Shown: positions 3,626 through 36,072 of the stretch, one piece after another
How the letters are laid out: every line of letters begins with the position of its first letter
Numbering within the stretch: position 1 is the stretch's first letter
From: a virus
Virus record (IMG/VR): IMGVR_UViG_3300031857_000630
Span: 1 to 36,072 of that record
Strand: one strand, 5' to 3'
Length of the DNA stretch: 36,072 bases
Program-made: the position numbers and the translations under genes
Notes under the pieces: model-generated
Databases searched by the model: none
The model's input: only the letters and a program-made list of their open reading frames with translations
Told to the model about the DNA's origin: nothing

Positions 3626-4024
3626 TTAGTGATACAGACCAAGTTCTTTAGCCTGCTTTGGATTTTCATGGATCCAGGTATGACAGTTCCTACAGACAGC
3701 GATAAACTCAGTATCATCCAACATTAAATCACCGGTACGGCCCTTACTGTGGTGGATGTCATGAGCATTAAGGGAACAGCCAGGCAGGTTTGCCTCACAC
3801 ATGGGATGATGCTTTAGATACTTCTCCCGTAGGATAGAGTAAATAGCATCTAGCTTCTGCTGCTTGGAAGATTTAGGGGACAGAGGTTTCTGTTTTGTTG
3901 GTTTAATCTCTTTGCTAGAATGGCAACTCCAGCATTCTTGACAGAATCTCTCTGACCCTAATCTCTTCCAAATCTTTTTCTCTTTACCGCAGCCAGAGCA
4001 TATTTTAGGCTTGGCTTGCAGCAT
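3626..4024 (-). CDS. HNH endonuclease with N-terminal zinc ribbon
   Basis: 132 residues. The N-terminus has a zinc-ribbon-like set of cysteines (C9, C12, C28, C31, C34), then a basic linker. The C-terminal half is an HNH domain: CEANLPGCS (76-84), HDIHHSKGR (88-96, with the catalytic-type HH at 91-92), and CRNCHTWIH (111-119), which supplies the structural CxxC and final histidines. Known: such nucleases nick or cut DNA with one metal ion. In phages they act as homing nucleases or help packaging and host DNA degradation. No intron or interrupted gene lies next to it, so a homing role is not indicated. Its ATG overlaps the stop of the upstream small gene by one base. Confidence 0.85.
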   Translation of the reverse strand: MLQAKPKICSGCGKEKKIWKRLGSERFCQECWSCHSSKEIKPTKQKPLSPKSSKQQKLDAIYSILREKYLKHHPMCEANLPGCSLNAHDIHHSKGRTGDLMLDDTEFIAVCRNCHTWIHENPKQAKELGLYH

Positions 4025-4197
4025 TACTGAATCATTACAGAACCAGACCCATAACCATGGGCATGCTCAGGTGAATCACTCAGTTTAGTAGCACATTCAG
4101 ACTGCTTAGTCAGCTCCTCTAAAAGAGCCTCTTCTGTCTTACTCTCAGGAGTAAGTATGATCTTAAGCTTAGAATCAAAAATTGATACGATTTTCAT
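4024..4197 (-). CDS. 57-residue small protein, unknown
   Basis: ATG at 4197, stop at 4026-4024. Both ends form one-base TAATG overlaps with the neighbouring genes, which strongly supports this as a real gene although it is short. The protein starts with a beta-like stretch (MKIVSIFDSKLKIIL), has an acidic helix (EEALLEELT) and ends in a His/Gly/Ser-rich tail. No family recognised. Confidence 0.6.
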   Translation of the reverse strand: MKIVSIFDSKLKIILTPESKTEEALLEELTKQSECATKLSDSPEHAHGYGSGSVMIQ

Positions 4198-4505
4198 TAG
4201 AATCTTTTTTGGTAAGTTTCATTTACTTGATCAACTAAAGCTGGGTCAGCCTCTGTAATAATAGAGGCAATCAGTTCCAGCTTCTTATGAAGACTAACCA
4301 CAAAGAGATAATGTCTATCCTTGATCAGATCATTAAGATCATCATCAGTTAAATCATATCCAATGGATATGAATCCTGCTCCCATCAAATCGATCTCATC
4401 CACAACCTTTTTGGTTTTGATGATAGACTGGTACCTATTGTACTCATCTAGATTTTCAAGGTAGAGAAACAGTATCTCTTCGTTGGTTAGGTCTTGGAAT
4501 GTCAT
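4197..4505 (-). CDS. Small helical protein, unknown
   Basis: 102 residues, acidic and mostly helical by composition, with no cysteine pairs, signal or membrane segment. It overlaps the upstream gene by four bases (ATGA) and the downstream one by one base (TAATG), so it is part of a tightly coupled operon leading to the HNH nuclease and helicase. Function unknown. Confidence 0.6.
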   Translation of the reverse strand: MTFQDLTNEEILFLYLENLDEYNRYQSIIKTKKVVDEIDLMGAGFISIGYDLTDDDLNDLIKDRHYLFVVSLHKKLELIASIITEADPALVDQVNETYQKRF

Positions 4506-4975
4506 TTGTCAGACAGTTTGAAAAAGTTAAATGGTAATATCCTTTCCTCAATAAGCTTCTGGATAATATCATCCTTGGTTATACCCAAGGTTTTGAATTC
4601 CATCGTGCTAATATAATCTGGATCAGTTACTCCGGCAAACTTCTCAGTATAGTCTTTGACAATCCTGCTGTGATGAAACAGCTTTAGCATAATCTCAGCA
4701 GTGTAATGATGAGTCAGCTCTTGTTTCCAAATGTTTAGAATCTGCTGAGCTCTCTCATGAACTTTTGAGATTCTCTTGATCTTGTCCGTGTGCATCTTTG
4801 CCTTCTCCTCCTCAGTATATACAGACATACCAAACAGTGCTCTCTTATAGAGAAAGTTCTGATATGCATTGTACTTATCTCTCTCATACTCAACATGAGA
4901 CCTTTTGTACTGGTTTCCAAACCTTTGGTACTCGGCAAGTCTACCGTTGTAAACTACTTTTTGATAGGTAGGCAT
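4502..4975 (-). CDS. Conserved phage protein, helical, unknown function
   Basis: 157 residues, highly charged and rich in Tyr, Lys and Glu. Blocks such as LYKRALFGMSVYTEEEKAKM, then HERAQQILNIWKQELTH and IIQKLIEERILPFNFF, recall a family found in Bacteroidota phage replication regions, but I cannot name a function. Its position between the ssDNA-binding candidate and the HNH nuclease/helicase suggests DNA metabolism (inference). No catalytic motif is visible. Confidence 0.62.
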   Translation of the reverse strand: MPTYQKVVYNGRLAEYQRFGNQYKRSHVEYERDKYNAYQNFLYKRALFGMSVYTEEEKAKMHTDKIKRISKVHERAQQILNIWKQELTHHYTAEIMLKLFHHSRIVKDYTEKFAGVTDPDYISTMEFKTLGITKDDIIQKLIEERILPFNFFKLSDK

Positions 4976-5022
4976 TTAATAAGTTGGTTTTAGTTTGTAA
5001 TTGAATTGGTAACAGGATCCCC

Positions 5023-5490
5023 TTATAGATTAAAATCTACAGTATCCTCCTCACTAACATTGGCAGAAATAGCCTGGTTAGCACGACGAATCTCATCTAC
5101 ATTATCATGGGAAACAAACTCATCATGTTCATTTCCACCCATATTATAGAAAGTCTTTCTGAAAATAGGTTGACCTTCAACAGTACAAACAACATTGGTA
5201 CGGCCAGCAATCTTGAAGTCATTGCTAGGATCTTTCATATTGAAAGGTGTCAATGATTCTTTGATCACAATCTTACCTGGTAAGAATTGGCCAGCAACCC
5301 AGTCAAGTGACTTGAGTTCATCAACAGAACCATGGACAAGAGCACTGATCACTTTGGTATTTAACCAGCCCTTGTTGTTCATGATGGTTCTCTTCTGTTC
5401 AACACGGATGTGGCCAAACTTTGGATTTTCTTTTGAGACAATAATAGCCTCACCAGCATCATTGCCGGTAACAATAACTTGATTAAACAT
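5023..5490 (-). CDS. Putative single-stranded DNA-binding (OB-like) protein
   Basis: 155 residues. The first 20 residues (MFNQVIVTGNDAG) resemble the start of SSB (NKVILVGNLG), and the body is beta-rich with repeated short strands (FGHIRVEQKR, PGKIVIKESL, TNVVCTVEGQPIFRKTF), consistent with an OB fold. The C-terminus is acidic and ends DTVDFNL, like the SSB tip that docks partner proteins. Homologues look common in Bacteroidota phages next to helicases and nucleases, which fits here. Likely role: coating ssDNA during phage replication. The alternative is a beta-rich DNA-binding protein of another fold. Confidence 0.55.
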   Translation of the reverse strand: MFNQVIVTGNDAGEAIIVSKENPKFGHIRVEQKRTIMNNKGWLNTKVISALVHGSVDELKSLDWVAGQFLPGKIVIKESLTPFNMKDPSNDFKIAGRTNVVCTVEGQPIFRKTFYNMGGNEHDEFVSHDNVDEIRRANQAISANVSEEDTVDFNL

Positions 5491-13338: not shown

Positions 13339-13797
13339 TTAGATGTTGAATGGATCGATTCCTGGGTCAGAACCTGCATTCTCAACCTCAGGAGCCTCAG
13401 TTTTTCCCTCAGTCTTGTCTTCTACCTTATTAATAGGTGTCTGAACAGATTGACGGCTACGTGGATTGTCAAATCCGAGCTGTCCCAACAAACGGTCAGC
13501 TAGCTGTTCTTTCAGGAAGTCATACTGCCCTACAAGATTAGCTGCCTTACGTAATTGAGATGTATCAGCAACTACATTACCGTTGGTGGTAATGATCATT
13601 GGACATACCTCACCTACATAGTTTAGGCTGAACCACAGTGGTTTACCTGTCTCAGAGTCCTCACGGTACTCAGCACCCTTGGCATCTTTATATGCCTCAA
13701 GCTCTGCCTCTGTTCCGTCAACTGAATAGACAAATACGTCTACAATGTTGTTGTTCTTAGTACGTTTTGGATAGCTGTTTTGAAATACTGCTTTCAT
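13339..13797 (-). CDS. Phage protein with SSB-like acidic C-terminal tail (paralogue 1)
   Basis: 152 residues. The body (1-105) starts MKAVFQNSYPKRT and has VDVFVYSVDGTEAELEAYKDA, then ETGKPLWFSLNYVG and NGNVVADTSQL. After about residue 105 comes a low-complexity linker (Gln, Thr, Glu, Ala) and an acidic end SDPGIDPFNI. The gene at 14053 is a paralogue: VYNVFCYLVDKSNNPLAIAQLEEDIKA, EESGCLLFKTTRIVPVG and GIDPFNL line up in order. A folded domain, flexible linker and acidic PF tip is the design of bacterial SSB. A replication accessory role is inferred; DNA binding is not shown. It has a promoter-like 17-mer 71 bases upstream. Confidence 0.66.
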   Translation of the reverse strand: MKAVFQNSYPKRTKNNNIVDVFVYSVDGTEAELEAYKDAKGAEYREDSETGKPLWFSLNYVGEVCPMIITTNGNVVADTSQLRKAANLVGQYDFLKEQLADRLLGQLGFDNPRSRQSVQTPINKVEDKTEGKTEAPEVENAGSDPGIDPFNI

Positions 13798-13858
13798 GTT
13801 TGAAACTGTTTTAATTGATTTATGTGAATACTGTTTTAATAAACATTACTAGAAACAT

Positions 13859-13884
13859 AATGGAAAATTTTAAAAAAAGGAACT
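13859..13884 (-). promoter_or_regulatory. Shared 17-mer promoter element, copy 1
   Basis: Minus-strand AGTTCCTTTTTTTAAAA (13884-13868) followed after 4 bases by CCAT. The same 17 bases occur at 14573-14589 and 17227-17243, always 47-71 bases upstream of a minus-strand start codon. It does not match the host TAnnTTTG promoter, so a phage-specific middle promoter or activator site is likely (inference). Confidence 0.6.
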
Positions 13885-13925
13885 ATAATATAGTTTAAGA
13901 CTGTTTCCCCGGTTCCGTAGGATGT

Positions 13926-13957
13926 GGTAGGAGGACAGAGATAACGGTGATAGTAAA
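13926..13957 (-). repeat. Upstream element shared with 14711-14761
   Basis: The + strand has GGTAGGAGGACAG then GGTGATAGTAAA. The gap upstream of the next paralogue has AGTAGGAGGAGGACTG then GGTGATAGTAAA at 14705-14761. Both lie between the upstream gene's terminator and the shared 17-mer, so the regulatory region was probably duplicated with the gene. Role unknown. Confidence 0.45.
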
Positions 13958-13999
13958 AAGTATGTTTACATTCAGTACAGTAAAAAAAGTAACTCTGTT

Positions 14000-14037
14000 A
14001 TAAAAGAGGGACAGCTCTCTGTTGAGAGCCGCCCTCC
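14000..14037 (-). terminator. Intrinsic terminator of paralogue 2 gene
   Basis: Minus-strand GAGGG and CCCTC enclose GCTCTC-AACA-GAGAGC, with TTTTAT after the hairpin. It starts 16 bases after the stop at 14053. Confidence 0.85.
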
Positions 14038-14052
14038 TTCCTATTCAGTCTG

Positions 14053-14526
14053 TTACAGATTGAATGGATCTATCCCTGCATCCCCTTCCTCTGCATCACC
14101 TTGTGCTGCTGGTATTTCAGGTGTTTCCTCAGCCACAACAGGTCCGTGTTTCTTGCCACGTTTGTTGATGTCTGCAAGCATCTGTTCAGCCAGTGCCTTA
14201 CCTAAACCGAGGTTTGGATAGAGCTTGTCCAAGGCATTGATCTCATCCCATTTCTGGGTGTCGGCAATCCATTTACCCTTGCTGGTTCTGATGATGTCAC
14301 AACCAACAGGTACAATACGTGTGGTCTTGAATAACAGGCAACCAGACTCCTCATCAATGATGACGTTGTGACCTGCAGCCTTGATGTCTTCCTCAAGCTG
14401 GGCAATGGCCAATGGATTGTTAGACTTGTCTACAAGGTAGCAGAATACGTTGTAGACAGAACCGTCATCTTCATTCTGACGTGTGAACTTGTTACGGTAG
14501 TTAACCTTTAAGCTGTTTTTGCTCAT
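14053..14526 (-). CDS. Phage protein with SSB-like acidic C-terminal tail (paralogue 2)
   Basis: 157 residues. N-terminal domain (1-118) with KVNYRNKFTRQNEDDGSVY, then NVFCYLVDKSNNPLA, GCLLFKTTRIVPVGCDII and GKWIADTQKW. A Lys-rich turn (INKRGKKHG) leads into an acidic linker (EETPEIPA, then GDAEEGDAG) ending IDPFNL. It is a paralogue of the gene at 13339, with more divergence in the body than in the last six residues, which suggests selection on the tip. It has its own 17-mer element 47 bases upstream and a strong terminator. Possible DNA- or replisome-binding protein; unproven. Confidence 0.66.
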   Translation of the reverse strand: MSKNSLKVNYRNKFTRQNEDDGSVYNVFCYLVDKSNNPLAIAQLEEDIKAAGHNVIIDEESGCLLFKTTRIVPVGCDIIRTSKGKWIADTQKWDEINALDKLYPNLGLGKALAEQMLADINKRGKKHGPVVAEETPEIPAAQGDAEEGDAGIDPFNL

Positions 14527-14568
14527 AATAACTGGGTTTTAATTAATAATTACTAGCTACTAAATGGA

Positions 14569-14589
14569 TATATTTTAAAAAAAGGAACT
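14569..14589 (-). promoter_or_regulatory. Shared 17-mer promoter element, copy 2
   Basis: Minus-strand AGTTCCTTTTTTTAAAA (14589-14573), then TATAT and CCAT, 47 bases before the ATG at 14526. A further downstream match to copy 1 is CTAGTAAT and an AT-rich leader ending TTAAAAC, so the two copies share leader as well as core. Confidence 0.6.
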
Positions 14590-14704
14590 GATTTAGAAAT
14601 GCAATAATAGTCATTTCCCTAACTAACTGATTATCAGTTCAACCTGTTATTTCTGTTTGGTCTCCACCCCGAGATTTGTCTCACCTGTTTTACAGTAGGA
14701 TTCC

Positions 14705-14761
14705 AATAGTAGGAGGAGGACTGTGCTGCAGGATGGACTTAGGAGCAGAGGTGATAGTAAA
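14705..14761 (-). repeat. Upstream element shared with 13926-13957
   Basis: AGTAGGAGGAGGACTG and GGTGATAGTAAA, matching the element upstream of copy 1. The rest of 14590-14773 has short inverted repeats (GAGA-CAAA-TCTC on the minus strand near 14673) but no gene I can support. Confidence 0.42.
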
Positions 14762-14773
14762 TCCATAGGACAG

Positions 14774-14798
14774 AATAAAAGGGGATTGCTCCCCTCTT
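14774..14798 (-). terminator. Intrinsic terminator of the ParB-like gene
   Basis: Minus-strand GGGG-AGCAAT-CCCC hairpin extended by an A-G/T-rich flank and followed by TTTTATTC, 11 bases after the stop at 14809. Confidence 0.8.
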
Positions 14799-14808
14799 AT
14801 TACCAACG

Positions 14809-15540
14809 TCAGTTGTACACTCTGGTCAGCAGGTCAAAGATGTAACCTGAGTCATGAGGAATGTTCTTGAAGCTCTCAGCATTTTCTCTGAGTTTCTTCA
14901 GCATCTTACCGTGATCATACTTTGTAGAGTTAGTACGGTAGAAATTGATGTAAGCATTGTGGAACTTGGTACTGTCTGCTTTGATCAGAGAGCACACGTC
15001 AATCAGGTTCTGTGTCACTATCTCTGAGTCTGGTGCTCCTGCCTTGAATGATCCATTGGTAATGGAGTTCAGGCCGTTGCTTCTGATTCCTCCTACGTTA
15101 CCTGATAGGATCATGGCAGACACATTGATACTGAAGCCATACTTGATTGAATGTTCTTTTAGGGTGAAATAGTCCTTGGCACCCAGTCCACAGTATGCAT
15201 TAACATAATCAACTATAGTCCACTTTTGCTGGACATTGTTGAGTAATGCCATCATACTTACAATCTCATTGAGAGAGTCTGTCTCTACCACAAAGGCAGA
15301 GACCTTGGCTTTCCCAACCCGTTTGAGACTCTCTATAAGATGTTGACCATCTACAGTATAGAGCTCAAGCTTGCCGGTAATTGCTCTGGTCTTAACCAGT
15401 ACAGGTGCACGGAGAATACCTACTGTAGCCAATGACTTAGTAAGTTTCTTAACATGCTCTTCTTTCTTATTACGATTGAATGGCAGATCCAGGATCTTGT
15501 TTACTGGTATTGCTTCAATCTTGTGTGTGAATACTTCCAT
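14809..15540 (-). CDS. ParB/sulfiredoxin-fold domain protein
   Basis: 243 residues. The N-terminal 85 residues are a ParB-like nuclease-fold domain: IPVNKILDLPFNRNKKEEHVK (11-31), then LTKSLATVGILRAPVLVK and LYTVDGQHLIESLKRVGKAKV (60-80). DGQH (64-67) replaces the GxxR-type motif of true ParB (R in ParB contacts CTP), so CTP binding is doubtful. The rest (86-243) is helical and unknown. No ParA ATPase is seen in the window, so plasmid-type segregation is unlikely. In phages such stand-alone domains serve as DNA-binding regulators or nucleases. It has its own terminator, and it lies near the tailed paralogues, so a DNA-handling role is plausible. Confidence 0.72.
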   Translation of the reverse strand: MEVFTHKIEAIPVNKILDLPFNRNKKEEHVKKLTKSLATVGILRAPVLVKTRAITGKLELYTVDGQHLIESLKRVGKAKVSAFVVETDSLNEIVSMMALLNNVQQKWTIVDYVNAYCGLGAKDYFTLKEHSIKYGFSINVSAMILSGNVGGIRSNGLNSITNGSFKAGAPDSEIVTQNLIDVCSLIKADSTKFHNAYINFYRTNSTKYDHGKMLKKLRENAESFKNIPHDSGYIFDLLTRVYN

Positions 15541-15567
15541 TATATGAGGATTAAGGGGTTACTACTT

Positions 15568-15597
15568 AAAAAGAAAAGGGGATCACTCCCCCTTTCT
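15568..15597 (-). terminator. Intrinsic terminator after the 94-residue gene
   Basis: Minus-strand AAAGGGGGA-GTGA-TCCCCTTT hairpin directly after the stop at 15598, followed by TCTTTTT. It also lies upstream of the ParB-like gene start. Confidence 0.84.
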
Positions 15598-15882
15598 TTA
15601 TGATGCTGGATGAATATTGTCCTGATCTTCAGGACCTTTCATCTTTTGAGCCCATGCATTCATGTGCTTGGCTGCTATCTCTGCTAGTTCCTGCATTTGT
15701 TTCATTGCATGCATGTGCATTTGAATTCTGATCAGGATATCTTCTAGCTGGTCTTCAGTCTTAGCATAGAGATCATCAAACTCCTCGGTGTCAATGTTTC
15801 TACCGGACAGTTTATGCCAGTTGTGATTGATGTCATTGATAAGCTGTACTTTAGCCAAAGGTGATGCTGTTTCTGTTTGCAT
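15598..15882 (-). CDS. 94-residue helical protein, unknown
   Basis: Mostly helix: residues 10-25, 35-60 and 60-85 with Met/Gln/Ala-rich sequence (RIQMHMHAMKQMQELAEIAAKHMNAW). The start (MQTETASPLAKVQLIND) looks soluble. No metal, membrane or enzyme motif. It is a single gene between two terminators, so it has its own promoter, probably near 15890-15940. Function unknown. Confidence 0.56.
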   Translation of the reverse strand: MQTETASPLAKVQLINDINHNWHKLSGRNIDTEEFDDLYAKTEDQLEDILIRIQMHMHAMKQMQELAEIAAKHMNAWAQKMKGPEDQDNIHPAS

Positions 15883-15907
15883 TGTATTAAGGGATTATGG
15901 GTTACGA

Positions 15908-15938
15908 TGTAAAGGACAGGCTGTTACACCTGTCCTAT
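15908..15938 (-). terminator. Intrinsic terminator after the 26-residue ORF
   Basis: AGGACAGG and CCTGTCCT form an 8-bp hairpin with an 8-nt loop (15913-15936), followed on the minus strand by TTTACAT, a short U-run. It starts 10 bases after the stop at 15947. Confidence 0.7.
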
Positions 15939-15946
15939 CTGCCTGG

Positions 15947-16027
15947 TTAAAATCCTAGACAGAACATTTGAATAGCAGCCTTAGCCTCTTCTGGAGACAA
16001 GGTTGCAAGCCATTGTGCAAATTCCAT
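15947..16027 (-). CDS. 26-residue micro-ORF
   Basis: ATG at 16027, TAA at 15949-15947, giving MEFAQWLATLSPEEAKAAIQ plus six more residues. It is helical in pattern with SPEEAK as a helix cap. It lies downstream of the folded RNA at 16087-16195 and upstream of its own terminator. It could be a real micro-protein or the coding part of that RNA. Support is the position and the terminator only. Confidence 0.35.
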   Translation of the reverse strand: MEFAQWLATLSPEEAKAAIQMFCLGF

Positions 16028-16086
16028 GGCTGATCAGGGATTGGTTAAAGGATATTGCAGGCTATCCTAATGACCTATATAAAAGA

Positions 16087-16195
16087 GATGATTGGTATCA
16101 CAGGCGTACATTCCTGCTCAAATGGGAGTTTACCCAAGTGTCTCACTAGTCCCCGAAGAATAATCTTCTAGACAGGTGTTGGCATACCAATCATC
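16087..16195 (-). ncRNA. Multi-branched structured small RNA
   Basis: 109 bases closed by a perfect 12-bp stem (GATGATTGGTAT with ATACCAATCATC). Inside are hairpins GAAGA-TTAT-TCTTC (within GTC/GAC), AGTG-AGA-CACT, TGGG-TAAACT-CCCA and CAGG-AATGTACG-CCTG. The layout resembles the RNA at 12635-12726, including an AGA-loop hairpin, but the primary sequences differ. The minus-strand 3' side continues TCTTTTATAT, so the closing stem could act as part of a terminator. No protein frame of note runs through it. It does not fit a tRNA or a riboswitch I can name. Confidence 0.55.
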
Positions 16196-16237
16196 AGCTA
16201 CATAATGGATACTATTAACAAAAGAAACCTTATTGAT

Positions 16238-16271
16238 GTAATACAAGAGGCATTGCTGCCCCCTGCATTAC
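16238..16271 (-). terminator. GNRA-capped hairpin after the 62-residue gene
   Basis: Minus-strand GTAAT and ATTAC enclose GGCA-GCAA-TGCC, with a GCAA loop, nine bases after the stop at 16280. The U-tract is weak, so it may be an mRNA 3' stabiliser rather than a terminator. Confidence 0.5.
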
Positions 16272-16279
16272 TCCCTTTA

Positions 16280-16468
16280 TCAACGACGCCTGTTTCTGGA
16301 CAGGTAATCTCGGTGACTCTCAGGCTTGACAAGACTGGCTGCCTTGTCCATGTTGTGGTCATTGAAGTAACCAATCAACCTCCAACCCTGAGATACATAT
16401 TCTGCTACTACTTGGTCTACAGACTTACCTCTGTAACCAGCATTGGTTTTATTTACTGTTATTTGCAT
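16280..16468 (-). CDS. 62-residue protein with short conserved-looking motif
   Basis: MQITVNKTNAGYRGKSVDQV leads to VAEYVSQGWRLIGYFNDHNMD and a basic end (RDYLSRNRRR). The GWRLIGYF strand after a helix is a compact alpha/beta pattern found in small domains of DUF4177 type, in which a helix (V-x-EYxxQGW) precedes a beta strand. The match is visual only. It overlaps the upstream membrane-protein gene by 20 bases. Function unknown. Confidence 0.5.
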   Translation of the reverse strand: MQITVNKTNAGYRGKSVDQVVAEYVSQGWRLIGYFNDHNMDKAASLVKPESHRDYLSRNRRR

Positions 16469-16688
16469 GGCTCTTAGCTTTATTGACTTTGTAATCTACA
16501 AATACACATACCATGATGATAGTAATAATAGTCATGACTGCACAGTAACTTGGGCTACCTAGTGCTGCCTTGTAAATTGATTTGTTCCACCATATCAGTG
16601 CAACTGTTGCTGCCGGTGATACAAATACTACTGCTGCAACAAGACATAACTGTAATGTCTTGAGGATAAATACAAAAGTGTGTTTCAT
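16449..16688 (-). CDS. Small two-helix membrane protein
   Basis: 79 residues. Hydrophobic segments at 5-32 and 45-66 with a short loop between (WWNKSIYKAALGS) and a polar tail (KVNKAKSHANNSK). This is an inner-membrane protein of unknown function. Its stop lies inside the next gene (20-base overlap). Its leader contains the terminator-like hairpin of the gene upstream. Confidence 0.56.
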   Translation of the reverse strand: MKHTFVFILKTLQLCLVAAVVFVSPAATVALIWWNKSIYKAALGSPSYCAVMTIITIIMVCVFVDYKVNKAKSHANNSK

Positions 16689-16724
16689 GTTGATTTATTA
16701 AAAGGGTTATAGTTTACATAATTA

Positions 16725-16757
16725 AGGGATACCAAGGTGTTAACCCTGATATCCCTA
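16725..16757 (-). terminator. Terminator-like hairpin after the ELPF-tailed gene
   Basis: AGGGATA and TATCCCT form a 7-bp stem with an 18-nt loop that itself can pair in part, followed on the minus strand by TTAATTATG. It begins seven bases after the stop at 16764. Confidence 0.6.
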
Positions 16758-16763
16758 TAAGAC

Positions 16764-17174
16764 CTAGAATGGCAATTCATCCTGATCATTGAACAGAAGT
16801 GCCTGGTTCTTCAGTTCCCAAAACATGCTGACCCATTCAGGTGCCATTTGACCTTGCAGTTCAGCAATCTCTGCCTCCCTGACTAGGACCTGTGCCCTTC
16901 TATAGATCTGACTCAGATCCAATTGCTGCCCTGACAATGCCATGCAATAGAGTCTAATGTTAGACTTGTTCTTGCAGACATCCTGTTCATACAAGGTCAG
17001 TCTTGGCCTGCTGCCAAAATCATGCATCCAAAAGGCAGCCCAATATGCAATATGCAATAGGCTGTTCCTCTTGACAGCAAACTTGAGGATAGTTGCAACG
17101 GTTACACCGTCAACTTGCACGGGCTTAATACCGTAATTAGAATTGATACTAATTGCTTGTACACGATTGCTCAT
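16764..17174 (-). CDS. Protein with SSB-like C-terminal tip (DELPF)
   Basis: 136 residues. The body has ISINSNYGIKPVQVDGV, then TVATILKFAVKRNSLLHIAYWAAFWMHDFG and a helical end (IYRRAQVLVREAEIAELQGQ). The last nine residues, FNDQDELPF, match the acidic-PF tip of bacterial SSB (DDIPF in E. coli, DDLPF in Bacteroidota), known to dock PriA, RecO, RecQ and other partners. The body is not an OB fold that I can see. It is the first minus-strand gene at the divergent region and carries copy 3 of the shared 17-mer 53 bases upstream, so it is probably an early or middle product. Confidence 0.62.
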   Translation of the reverse strand: MSNRVQAISINSNYGIKPVQVDGVTVATILKFAVKRNSLLHIAYWAAFWMHDFGSRPRLTLYEQDVCKNKSNIRLYCMALSGQQLDLSQIYRRAQVLVREAEIAELQGQMAPEWVSMFWELKNQALLFNDQDELPF

Positions 17175-17220
17175 GTTGATAAGGGATTAATGATGATAAC
17201 ATTATCATCAACTACTACAT

Positions 17221-17243
17221 GGTCCTTTTTAAAAAAAGGAACT
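17221..17243 (-). promoter_or_regulatory. Shared 17-mer promoter element, copy 3
   Basis: Minus-strand AGTTCCTTTTTTTAAAA (17243-17227), then AGGA and CCAT, as in the other copies, 53 bases before the ATG at 17174. This is the left-facing promoter of the divergent region. Confidence 0.6.
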
Positions 17244-33736: not shown

Positions 33737-34978
33737 ATGGAAGATAATAAAACAGCATCTACTGCTGCTGAGACTACTCAGATTGAGCAAGTAGATATGG
33801 ACCTAGATAGTTTAGACTTTCTAGGAACACCGGGAGCAGAAAACGTCCTGCTTCCTGAGGAACAGAAGCCTAATGTATTTACAAAGCCTTCTGTTGACCT
33901 CTCCTTTATTGACAAAGACTCTGATGAACCAGGCTCAGAGCCAACAGAAAAAGTTGAGATTGATGATGTCATCGGTGAAGTAGACCCTGAAGCTGACTTT
34001 AGAAAGAAGGAAGATAAACCTGAAGAAAAGAAAGCTGGCAGACCAAAGGTTGAAAAGAATGGAATGGCTGAGGTAGTTAACAAACTTATTGAAGCCGGTA
34101 AGATTGTTCCATTTGATGATGACAAACCTCTTGATGAGTACACTCTCAATGACTACCAAGAATTGCTTGAGGCAAACTTTGCAGAGATTGAAAACAAGGT
34201 ACGTCAGGAAACTCCAGTAGAGTTCTTTGATAGCCTTCCACAAGAACTGCAGTATGCTGCTAAGTATGTAGCTGATGGTGGTACAGACCTTAAAGGATTA
34301 TTCAAGGTTCTTGCTTCTGCAGAAGAGGTAAGAGATCTTAATCCAGCTCAGGAGTCTGACCAAGAACAGATTGTTCGTGAATACCTCAGAGCTACAAACT
34401 TTGGTACCATTGAAGAAATCAATGAAGAAATTGATAGCTGGAAAGACAGAGGAGATCTTGAAGCAAAGGCATTGAAGTTCAAGCCAAAATTGGATGCAAT
34501 GCAAGAACGTGTAGTTCAAAGTAAACTTGCTGAACAAGAAAATCTCCGTAAACAGCAACAAGCTGCAGCACAACAGTATATGGAAAATGTCTATAATACT
34601 GTAGCCACTGCAGAGATCAACGGACTGAAGTTGGATAAAAAGACCCAAGGCTTATTGTATAATGGTCTTGTACAACCTAACTATCCTTCTATCTCTGGAA
34701 GACCTACAAACTTGCTAGGCCATCTTTTAGAGAAGTACCAGTATGTTGAGCCAAATCACGGATTGATTGCTGAGGCTCTTTGGTTACTTTCTGATCCTGA
34801 GGGATACAGAGGTAAGGTTAGAGAACAGGCTAAGGTTGAAACTACTGAAAAGGTAGTAAGACAACTTAAGACTGAACAGGCCAAACTTCAGAGCAGTGCA
34901 CCGGTCATTGAGAAAGATGAAGTAAAAGAAAGAAGAATACCACGTAATACAACAGGTGGAGGATTCTTTAAACGATAA
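33737..34978 (+). CDS. Acidic scaffold-like protein upstream of capsid gene
   Basis: 413 residues. The first 110 residues are acidic and disordered-looking (DLDSLDFLGTPGAENVLLPE, then KSDS-rich). The middle is helical (GMAEVVNKLIEAGKIVPFDD, NDYQELLEANFAEIENKVR), and residues 250-300 form a Gln/Lys helix. The C-terminal end is basic (ERRIPRNTTGGGFFKR). Acidic helical protein with a basic C-terminal tip, placed between portal and major capsid, is the classical scaffold layout. Identity by layout only; in crAss-like phages the corresponding protein has no well-fixed role. Confidence 0.62.
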   Translation: MEDNKTASTAAETTQIEQVDMDLDSLDFLGTPGAENVLLPEEQKPNVFTKPSVDLSFIDKDSDEPGSEPTEKVEIDDVIGEVDPEADFRKKEDKPEEKKAGRPKVEKNGMAEVVNKLIEAGKIVPFDDDKPLDEYTLNDYQELLEANFAEIENKVRQETPVEFFDSLPQELQYAAKYVADGGTDLKGLFKVLASAEEVRDLNPAQESDQEQIVREYLRATNFGTIEEINEEIDSWKDRGDLEAKALKFKPKLDAMQERVVQSKLAEQENLRKQQQAAAQQYMENVYNTVATAEINGLKLDKKTQGLLYNGLVQPNYPSISGRPTNLLGHLLEKYQYVEPNHGLIAEALWLLSDPEGYRGKVREQAKVETTEKVVRQLKTEQAKLQSSAPVIEKDEVKERRIPRNTTGGGFFKR

Positions 34979-35009
34979 AAAAATTAACCTCTAAGTTAAA
35001 TAAGTAAAC

Positions 35010-36072
35010 ATGGCAACTCCAGTTTTAAACAATGGTATATTTCTACGAGATACCAATTATGCGGCTAGTTCGCACGTAGATTCATACCACCTGGTAAACA
35101 TGCTGAAGAATGCAGAACCTATGGACCTTGGTCCTGTGGACCTTTGGGCTATGGCTCAAAAGGTAGAAATGCCTCTCTATCAGATGTCTTCCTTTGGTGG
35201 TAAGAATGTAATTAACGTTGACAATGCACGTGGTGAGTACAAATGGCAAACACCAGTTGTACAAGATCTTCCATACATTGTTGATTCACAAGAAACCGGT
35301 ACTGTAGGTATCGATGGTCAAACCTTCAAGATTAAACTTTCACGTAGAGAGTTTGGTCATGGTGACATCATCACCTATGACAAGTACAATGGTTTTGAGA
35401 TGTACATCACTGCAGATGACATCATTCCTTTGGGTGATGGCTTCTTGTATACTGTACAGCTTGTAAACAATGATACTGGTAACGGTATTGATGCTGATAC
35501 TTACTTGGTATCTGGTACTAAAATCTTCCGTAAAGGTTCTGCACGTGGTGAATATGGAGAACGTTTCTCTGACATCATCACTGCTACAGGTTTCCGTGAG
35601 TTCTACAACTTTGTAGGAGGAGCTGAAGCACACGTACATTACTCTGTATCAAGCCGTGCTGATCTTATGATCAAAGGTGGTATGAATGCTGATGGTACTG
35701 TACCTGTAACTGAGATCTGGAGAAACTTTGACAAAAACGTAGATCCAGCAGTTGCTAACCTTGAAACAATGGTTAGCCGTATGGGTAAGGACTATGTTAA
35801 ACGTGCAATGTCAAACGGTTCATTAAGCCGTACATTCTTGACCACAATGGAAGCTGCTCACTTGACTAAAGTAGCAACTGACATTGAGACTTACCTCATG
35901 TGGGGACAAGGTGGTAGAGTACGTCAGGATGGTCCAGATGATGTACGTCTATCTGTCGGTCTTTGGAAGCAGTTGGATAACTCTTTCAAACGTGTATACA
36001 ACAAGTCTGGTTTCAACCTTGATTTGTTCCGTTCAGAAATCTATAACTTCTATGCTGGTAAGGTTGAGTTCA
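35010..36072 (+). CDS. Major capsid protein (N-terminal part, cut by window edge)
   Basis: Open frame from ATG 35010 to the edge, about 354 residues, no stop. It starts MATPVLNNGIFLRDTNYAAS and carries KLSRREFGHGDIITYDKYNGF (about 109-129), IIPLGDGFLYTVQLVNND, FRKGSARGEYGERFSD and FNFVGGAEAHVHYSVSSRAD, blocks that I associate with the HK97-fold capsid protein of crAss-like phages. The gene lies 31 bases after the scaffold-like gene with no terminator between them, so they share the 33.7 kb promoter. Codons are the most regular in the window (CGT, GGT, AAC), as expected of a highly expressed gene. The rest lies beyond the edge. Confidence 0.85.
   Translation, partial: MATPVLNNGIFLRDTNYAASSHVDSYHLVNMLKNAEPMDLGPVDLWAMAQKVEMPLYQMSSFGGKNVINVDNARGEYKWQTPVVQDLPYIVDSQETGTVGIDGQTFKIKLSRREFGHGDIITYDKYNGFEMYITADDIIPLGDGFLYTVQLVNNDTGNGIDADTYLVSGTKIFRKGSARGEYGERFSDIITATGFREFYNFVGGAEAHVHYSVSSRADLMIKGGMNADGTVPVTEIWRNFDKNVDPAVANLETMVSRMGKDYVKRAMSNGSLSRTFLTTMEAAHLTKVATDIETYLMWGQGGRVRQDGPDDVRLSVGLWKQLDNSFKRVYNKSGFNLDLFRSEIYNFYAGKVEF

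Follow-up and report, generated by a model that had tools for sequence, protein, structure and literature searches.

Three leftward genes of a crAss-like phage, encoding proteins that we denote A, B and C, share an upstream element that is found nowhere else in the analyzed record, and the proteins end in acidic tips with a Pro-Phe dipeptide. A and B are paralogues, and the order of the three genes and their common upstream mark are retained in related phages. We give about even chances to the explanation that A and B are phage SSB-like factors with phage-specific docking tips, that C copies the host SSB tip and that one element marks all three genes.

Three tip-bearing proteins and their relatives

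The DNA analyzed here, hereafter the window, is an entire virus record of 36 kb (36,072 nucleotides). Its terminase and portal protein match the PHROGs terminase and portal, and the terminase is about 25% identical to those of Crassvirales. We regard the source as a crAss-like phage; given this affinity, the host probably belongs to Bacteroidota. A divergent junction lies near 17.2-17.4 kb, and the leftward arm starts beside it. The first sizeable leftward gene encodes protein C (136 aa; 16764..17174, minus strand), and within 4 kb it is followed by the genes for B (157 aa; 14053..14526, minus strand) and then A (152 aa; 13339..13797, minus strand). The A-B-C order, together with its surroundings, is kept in three IMG/VR contigs, L001 (113 kb), L006 (119 kb) and L005 (120 kb), and likewise in L050; a copy of C is present in L016. 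In the window, the interval from C to B includes the gene for a ParB-N-like protein (14809-15540, minus strand), whereas the counterpart stretch of L001 contains small ORFs only. Downstream of A, L005 and L006 encode a protein of some 465 aa that is assigned to DUF7788/DUF2828 (7511-8902 in L005, with a Pfam E of 1.5e-52, and 7371-8774 in L006).

The first-pass annotation of the window had pointed out the ends IDPFNI, IDPFNL and DELPF in these proteins and had taken them, following acidic linkers, for the signature of the bacterial SSB tip. The ends themselves are as described (SDPGIDPFNI in A, GDAGIDPFNL in B and NDQDELPF in C), and three ends of the DPF/LPF type among the non-overlapping ORFs of the window compare with 0.19 expected; in a 113-kb relative, such ends occur in exactly the three A/B/C orthologues. 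Acidic linkers are present in A, with a tail of net charge -3 that is disordered over about 40 residues in the structural model, and in B, with a tail of net charge -8, whereas in C the acidic stretch is confined to a short end (net -3 over the last 11 residues). The SSB signature proper, that is, a terminal Phe with Pro and acidic residues before it, is present in C from all six phages in which this protein was compared and in none of the ten A/B sequences of the close clade.

A and B are 28% identical (E 3e-10) and, hence, paralogous. Orthologues of A were found in 4 close phages, and the A/B family, joined through two contig scans and profile searches, extends to about 17 phages, usually with two neighboring copies in each. 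Comparison of 30 family members with Pfam and PHROGs yielded scattered weak matches only, and PDB sequence profiles gave nothing convincing; a tblastn search of INPHARED with A, B and two distant members produced no match, and relatives of A sought in bacterial genomes were not found. All ten close-clade sequences end in [DN]-P-F plus 1-3 residues (for example, DPFNI, DPFKED and DPFA), with bodies that are 14-28% identical to one another; three alignment columns are invariant in 10/10, and two of these are the Pro and Phe of the tip. In other phages, the two paralogues carry different but matching tips, such as LGDL/LGDL, IGDL/IADL, AEEL/AEEL, LKDL/LKGL, VDGF/VDGF and TIF/TAF. Sharing of tips between the paralogues of one phage exceeds expectation across 13 phages (permutation p = 5e-5) and also when only the six phages with distant paralogues are considered (p = 0.0056); because the signal persists among distant paralogues, recent duplication is an unlikely cause. 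Family members lacking a matched or acidic tip are those of L062, L077, L095, L102 and L105.

The bodies of C are mostly 16-39% identical across six phages, apart from one close pair at 70%, and the proteins end in DELPF, DELPF, DGLPF, DDLPF, DDLPF and EELPF, that is, invariably in -LPF-COOH. Only 5 of the 121 gap-free columns of the alignment are invariant, and 3 of these 5 are the terminal L-P-F (hypergeometric 3e-5). Among 80 Bacteroidales SSBs, fetched with an approximate query sequence and with the tips read from the genomes themselves, 46 end in DDLPF and 68 in PF. The sequence of C thus fits well with a true mimic of the host SSB tip. Comparison with crAss-like relatives shows that the tips of A, B and C are held by selection, being the best-conserved part of proteins with bodies that have diverged greatly. 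Free variation of the tips among homologues had been named as an observation that would refute the first-pass annotation; LPF is constant in C, and the A/B tips do vary between phages, although the two tips of a phage mostly change together.

The hijacking of SSB-interacting host proteins by the whole group, as envisaged in the first-pass annotation, agrees with the acidic Pro-Phe tips of all three proteins, their common upstream element and the host-type tip of C, so that the three proteins might all be mimics of the host SSB tip that act together to hijack or block its partners. We consider this joint action unlikely, and for A and B it is not supported. Partners of SSB bury the C-terminal Phe and anchor its alpha-carboxylate, and loss of the Phe abolishes binding (PMC10164576); the 1-3 residues that follow the Phe in the close-clade A/B proteins therefore argue against docking in the canonical pocket. 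Moreover, the A/B tips are replaced in other phages by LGDL, AEEL or VDGF, while the host tips are largely constant. The proposal holds best for C, the tip of which matches those of Bacteroidales SSBs. For A and B, the largely concerted change of the two tips in each phage suggests a partner that is specific to the lineage, and the simplest reading is that both would dock on one shared partner that differs between phages and is probably phage-encoded.

The shared upstream element

The same 17-mer had been noted upstream of exactly these three genes, and our searches bear this out. The element AGTTCCTTTTTTTAAAA has three exact sites in the window, all on the minus strand, at 13868..13884, 14573..14589 and 17227..17243, which places them 70, 46 and 52 nt upstream of A, B and C, respectively, compared with 0.04 expected by chance, and no fourth site appears in the window even when 2 mismatches are allowed. 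An unbiased scan for 11-mers common to at least three separate upstream regions of the window recovered this element only, before A, B and C only; the gene for protein D (see below) has no 17-mer upstream.

The element marks the group also in relatives. In the 113 kb of L001, its counterpart, TTYATATTTACTTAAA, occurs four times, always within the A-B-C stretch and twice before C. The L006 version, ATGCCCWTYTCT, was found four times in 119 kb, once ahead of each of the three genes and once ahead of a small membrane ORF (69 aa, 3943-4152 of that contig). That of L005, TTGCCCTTN{0,1}CCT, precedes the three genes alone, with three occurrences in 120 kb. The L006 and L005 patterns were built from these very upstream regions, so their informative part is the absence of further sites. 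Thus, the sequence of the element varies between phages, and the same three genes are marked in four phages, with 3-4 copies per 113-120 kb genome. An element common to A and B is present also in L086, L062, L076 and L102, where it was unmatched in 60 shuffles; none was seen in L077, L066, L081, L032, L020 and L105. In most phages the element is rich in pyrimidines, and it is located mostly 30-80 nt ahead of the start codons. Its natural explanation would be a promoter or the binding site of a regulator, evolving together with its reader, and the position of the genes suggests that A, B and C are expressed early.

T4 gp32 regulates its own mRNA, and by analogy A and B could be phage SSBs, with the element serving as an autoregulatory leader site that evolves with their binding surface and, therefore, differs between phages. 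The location and pyrimidine richness of the element would suit such a site, as would the lack of further sites in L001 and L005 and the single extra site, before a small ORF, in L006. However, C carries the element as well although it is no relative of A and B, the leaders of A and B show no unusual RNA structure when folding is compared with shuffles, and a plain promoter accounts for the same facts, which makes autoregulation distinctly improbable. In the leader of C, a short distance ahead of the start codon, there is a palindromic sequence, GATGATAA-(4 nt)-TTATCATC (17180-17225, minus strand), that is nearly conserved in L001 (5940-5985); the whole C leader of the window folds better than 200/200 shuffles, unlike the C leader of L001.

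Protein bodies and other tailed proteins

The statement that the bodies differ from SSB is upheld by profile comparison. A and B show no match to the Pfam SSB family (PF00436), and hhalign comparison with Bacteroidales SSBs yields less than 5% probability for A and B and, likewise, for the body of C, without profile similarity. Profile comparison of C with A/B revealed no relation, a PHROGs search with C gave scattered weak matches only, PDB sequence profiles nothing convincing and tblastn against INPHARED no match.

An AlphaFold2 model of A from a 4-sequence input was poor (pLDDT 52) and was replaced by one from a 30-sequence input, in which the body is confident up to residue 100 (ten-residue blocks at 87-96) and the tail is disordered. 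The predicted order is beta1-beta2-long helix-beta3-beta4-beta5, and two helices accompany this beta-beta-alpha-beta-beta-beta body. A Foldseek search with this model returned no match at E <= 0.001, with T7 gp2.5 and the Enc34 SSB outside the top 50; along with many unrelated proteins, the weak matches included ssDNA-binding ones, namely PrgE, the Pf3 SSB and an SSB of a Thermus phage. Because no match was significant, an SSB-like function of A and B is, judging from the model, a lead rather than a result. The body of A is acidic (pI 4.8) and not obviously DNA-binding, and those of B and C are basic. The basic bodies and acidic tails of B and C, along with the acidic tails of T7 gp2.5 and T4 gp32, which reduce DNA affinity (PMC5686142), might suggest that the tips are autoinhibitory, covering a nucleic-acid-binding surface in cis instead of serving for docking, but this is very unlikely, given that the invariance centers mostly on the Pro-Phe of the tip rather than on net charge, and that tips are common to paralogues with bodies only 14-28% identical.

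The 113-kb relative G001 encodes DnaB, primase, PolB, a PD-(D/E)XK exonuclease and an AAA_24 ATPase, which we take to be Sak4-like; a Pfam search of this one genome detected no SSB. Two further families have acidic F-x-L tails (DFNL, GFTL, NFEL, DFEL). Protein D (155 aa; 5023..5490, minus strand) belongs to a separate conserved family and has the acidic aromatic tail VDFNL, as reported in the first-pass annotation. Protein E, of 230-246 aa, is encoded between the AAA_24 gene and primase (contig coordinates: G001 35581-36321; G002 115992-116684; G003 40222-40914) and ends in NFEL or DFEL. A relationship of D or E to A/B is unsupported by hhalign, and D compared with Bacteroidales SSBs likewise stays under 5% probability; PDB sequence profiles gave nothing convincing for D and E, and tblastn of INPHARED with a D relative and E gave no match. 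D and E may be the main phage SSB candidates; that E, encoded beside the AAA_24 gene, may be the principal SSB of the phage speaks against an SSB-like role of A and B. A 370-aa protein of G002 (4167-5279) and G003 (33994-35106; contig coordinates) has a Lys/Pro-rich tail with the end PLPF or SIPF; the end of its apparent G001 counterpart differs and carries no such tip.

A putative docking system and its precedents

In the explanation to which we give even chances, a single dedicated upstream element, a promoter or operator, would mark three tip-bearing proteins. A and B would be, most likely, small paralogous SSB-like factors associated with ssDNA or the replisome, and the docking peptide at the end of their flexible acidic tails, Asp-hydrophobic-Asp-Pro-Phe-x, would bind a single partner, common to both and probably phage-encoded, in the setting of a replication and recombination module with the Sak4-like AAA ATPase, DnaB, primase and PolB. 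With a C-terminus that copies the host SSB tip, C could engage host SSB-interacting proteins, and its tip would occupy, recruit or titrate RecO, RecQ, PriA, RecG and others. A broader proposal, which we put forward tentatively and with some doubt, is that of an undescribed interaction code: a phage-private promoter would co-express the A/B hub pair and the host-tip-bearing C, combining the phage's own hub with capture of host partners, and the sequences of tip and promoter would each be renewed in step within a lineage.

In the maintenance of bacterial genomes, SSB tips are a central docking code. A host tip on a non-SSB body, as in C, would naturally compete for the partners of the host SSB. 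The co-variation of paired A/B tips offers a route to the partner, and the unnamed A/B family would account for some of the unannotated arm in environmental crAss-like phages. Phage SSBs are also known to trigger the defense systems AbpAB, Retron-Eco8, Hachiman, Nhi and Hna (PMC10732053). In the literature covered, mostly open-access, we found no description of phage proteins that mimic the SSB tip on a non-SSB body; the novelty lies in the combination of features.

Among known systems, the bacterial SSB C-terminus (DDDIPF in E. coli, DDLPF in Bacteroidales) resembles C in the acidic LPF-COOH end, with Pro before the terminal Phe, whereas C lacks SSB profile similarity and A and B carry residues beyond the Phe. 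The hallmark of T7-type SSBs is the order strand-strand-long helix-three strands (PMC5686142). Like these proteins (T7 gp2.5, Enc34 ORF6/DUF2815), A ends in an acidic tail and, in the predicted model, has a long helix that directly follows strand 2; unlike them, A has no significant Foldseek match, and A and B are two paralogues with a private promoter-like element. In phage HK620, the SSB has a six-residue SSB-like tip, NDYPPF, that is required for the phage partner Sak4, and most sak4 genes adjoin an ssb gene (PMC5928155). As in HK620, an acidic SSB-like tip coexists in the crAss-like phages with a presumably Sak4-like AAA_24 ATPase; the difference is that the HK620 SSB adjoins sak4 and ends in NDYPPF, whereas A and B are encoded far from the AAA gene and end in DPFxx. 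The HK620 tip is thereby a direct precedent for the use of such a tip with a partner encoded by the phage itself.
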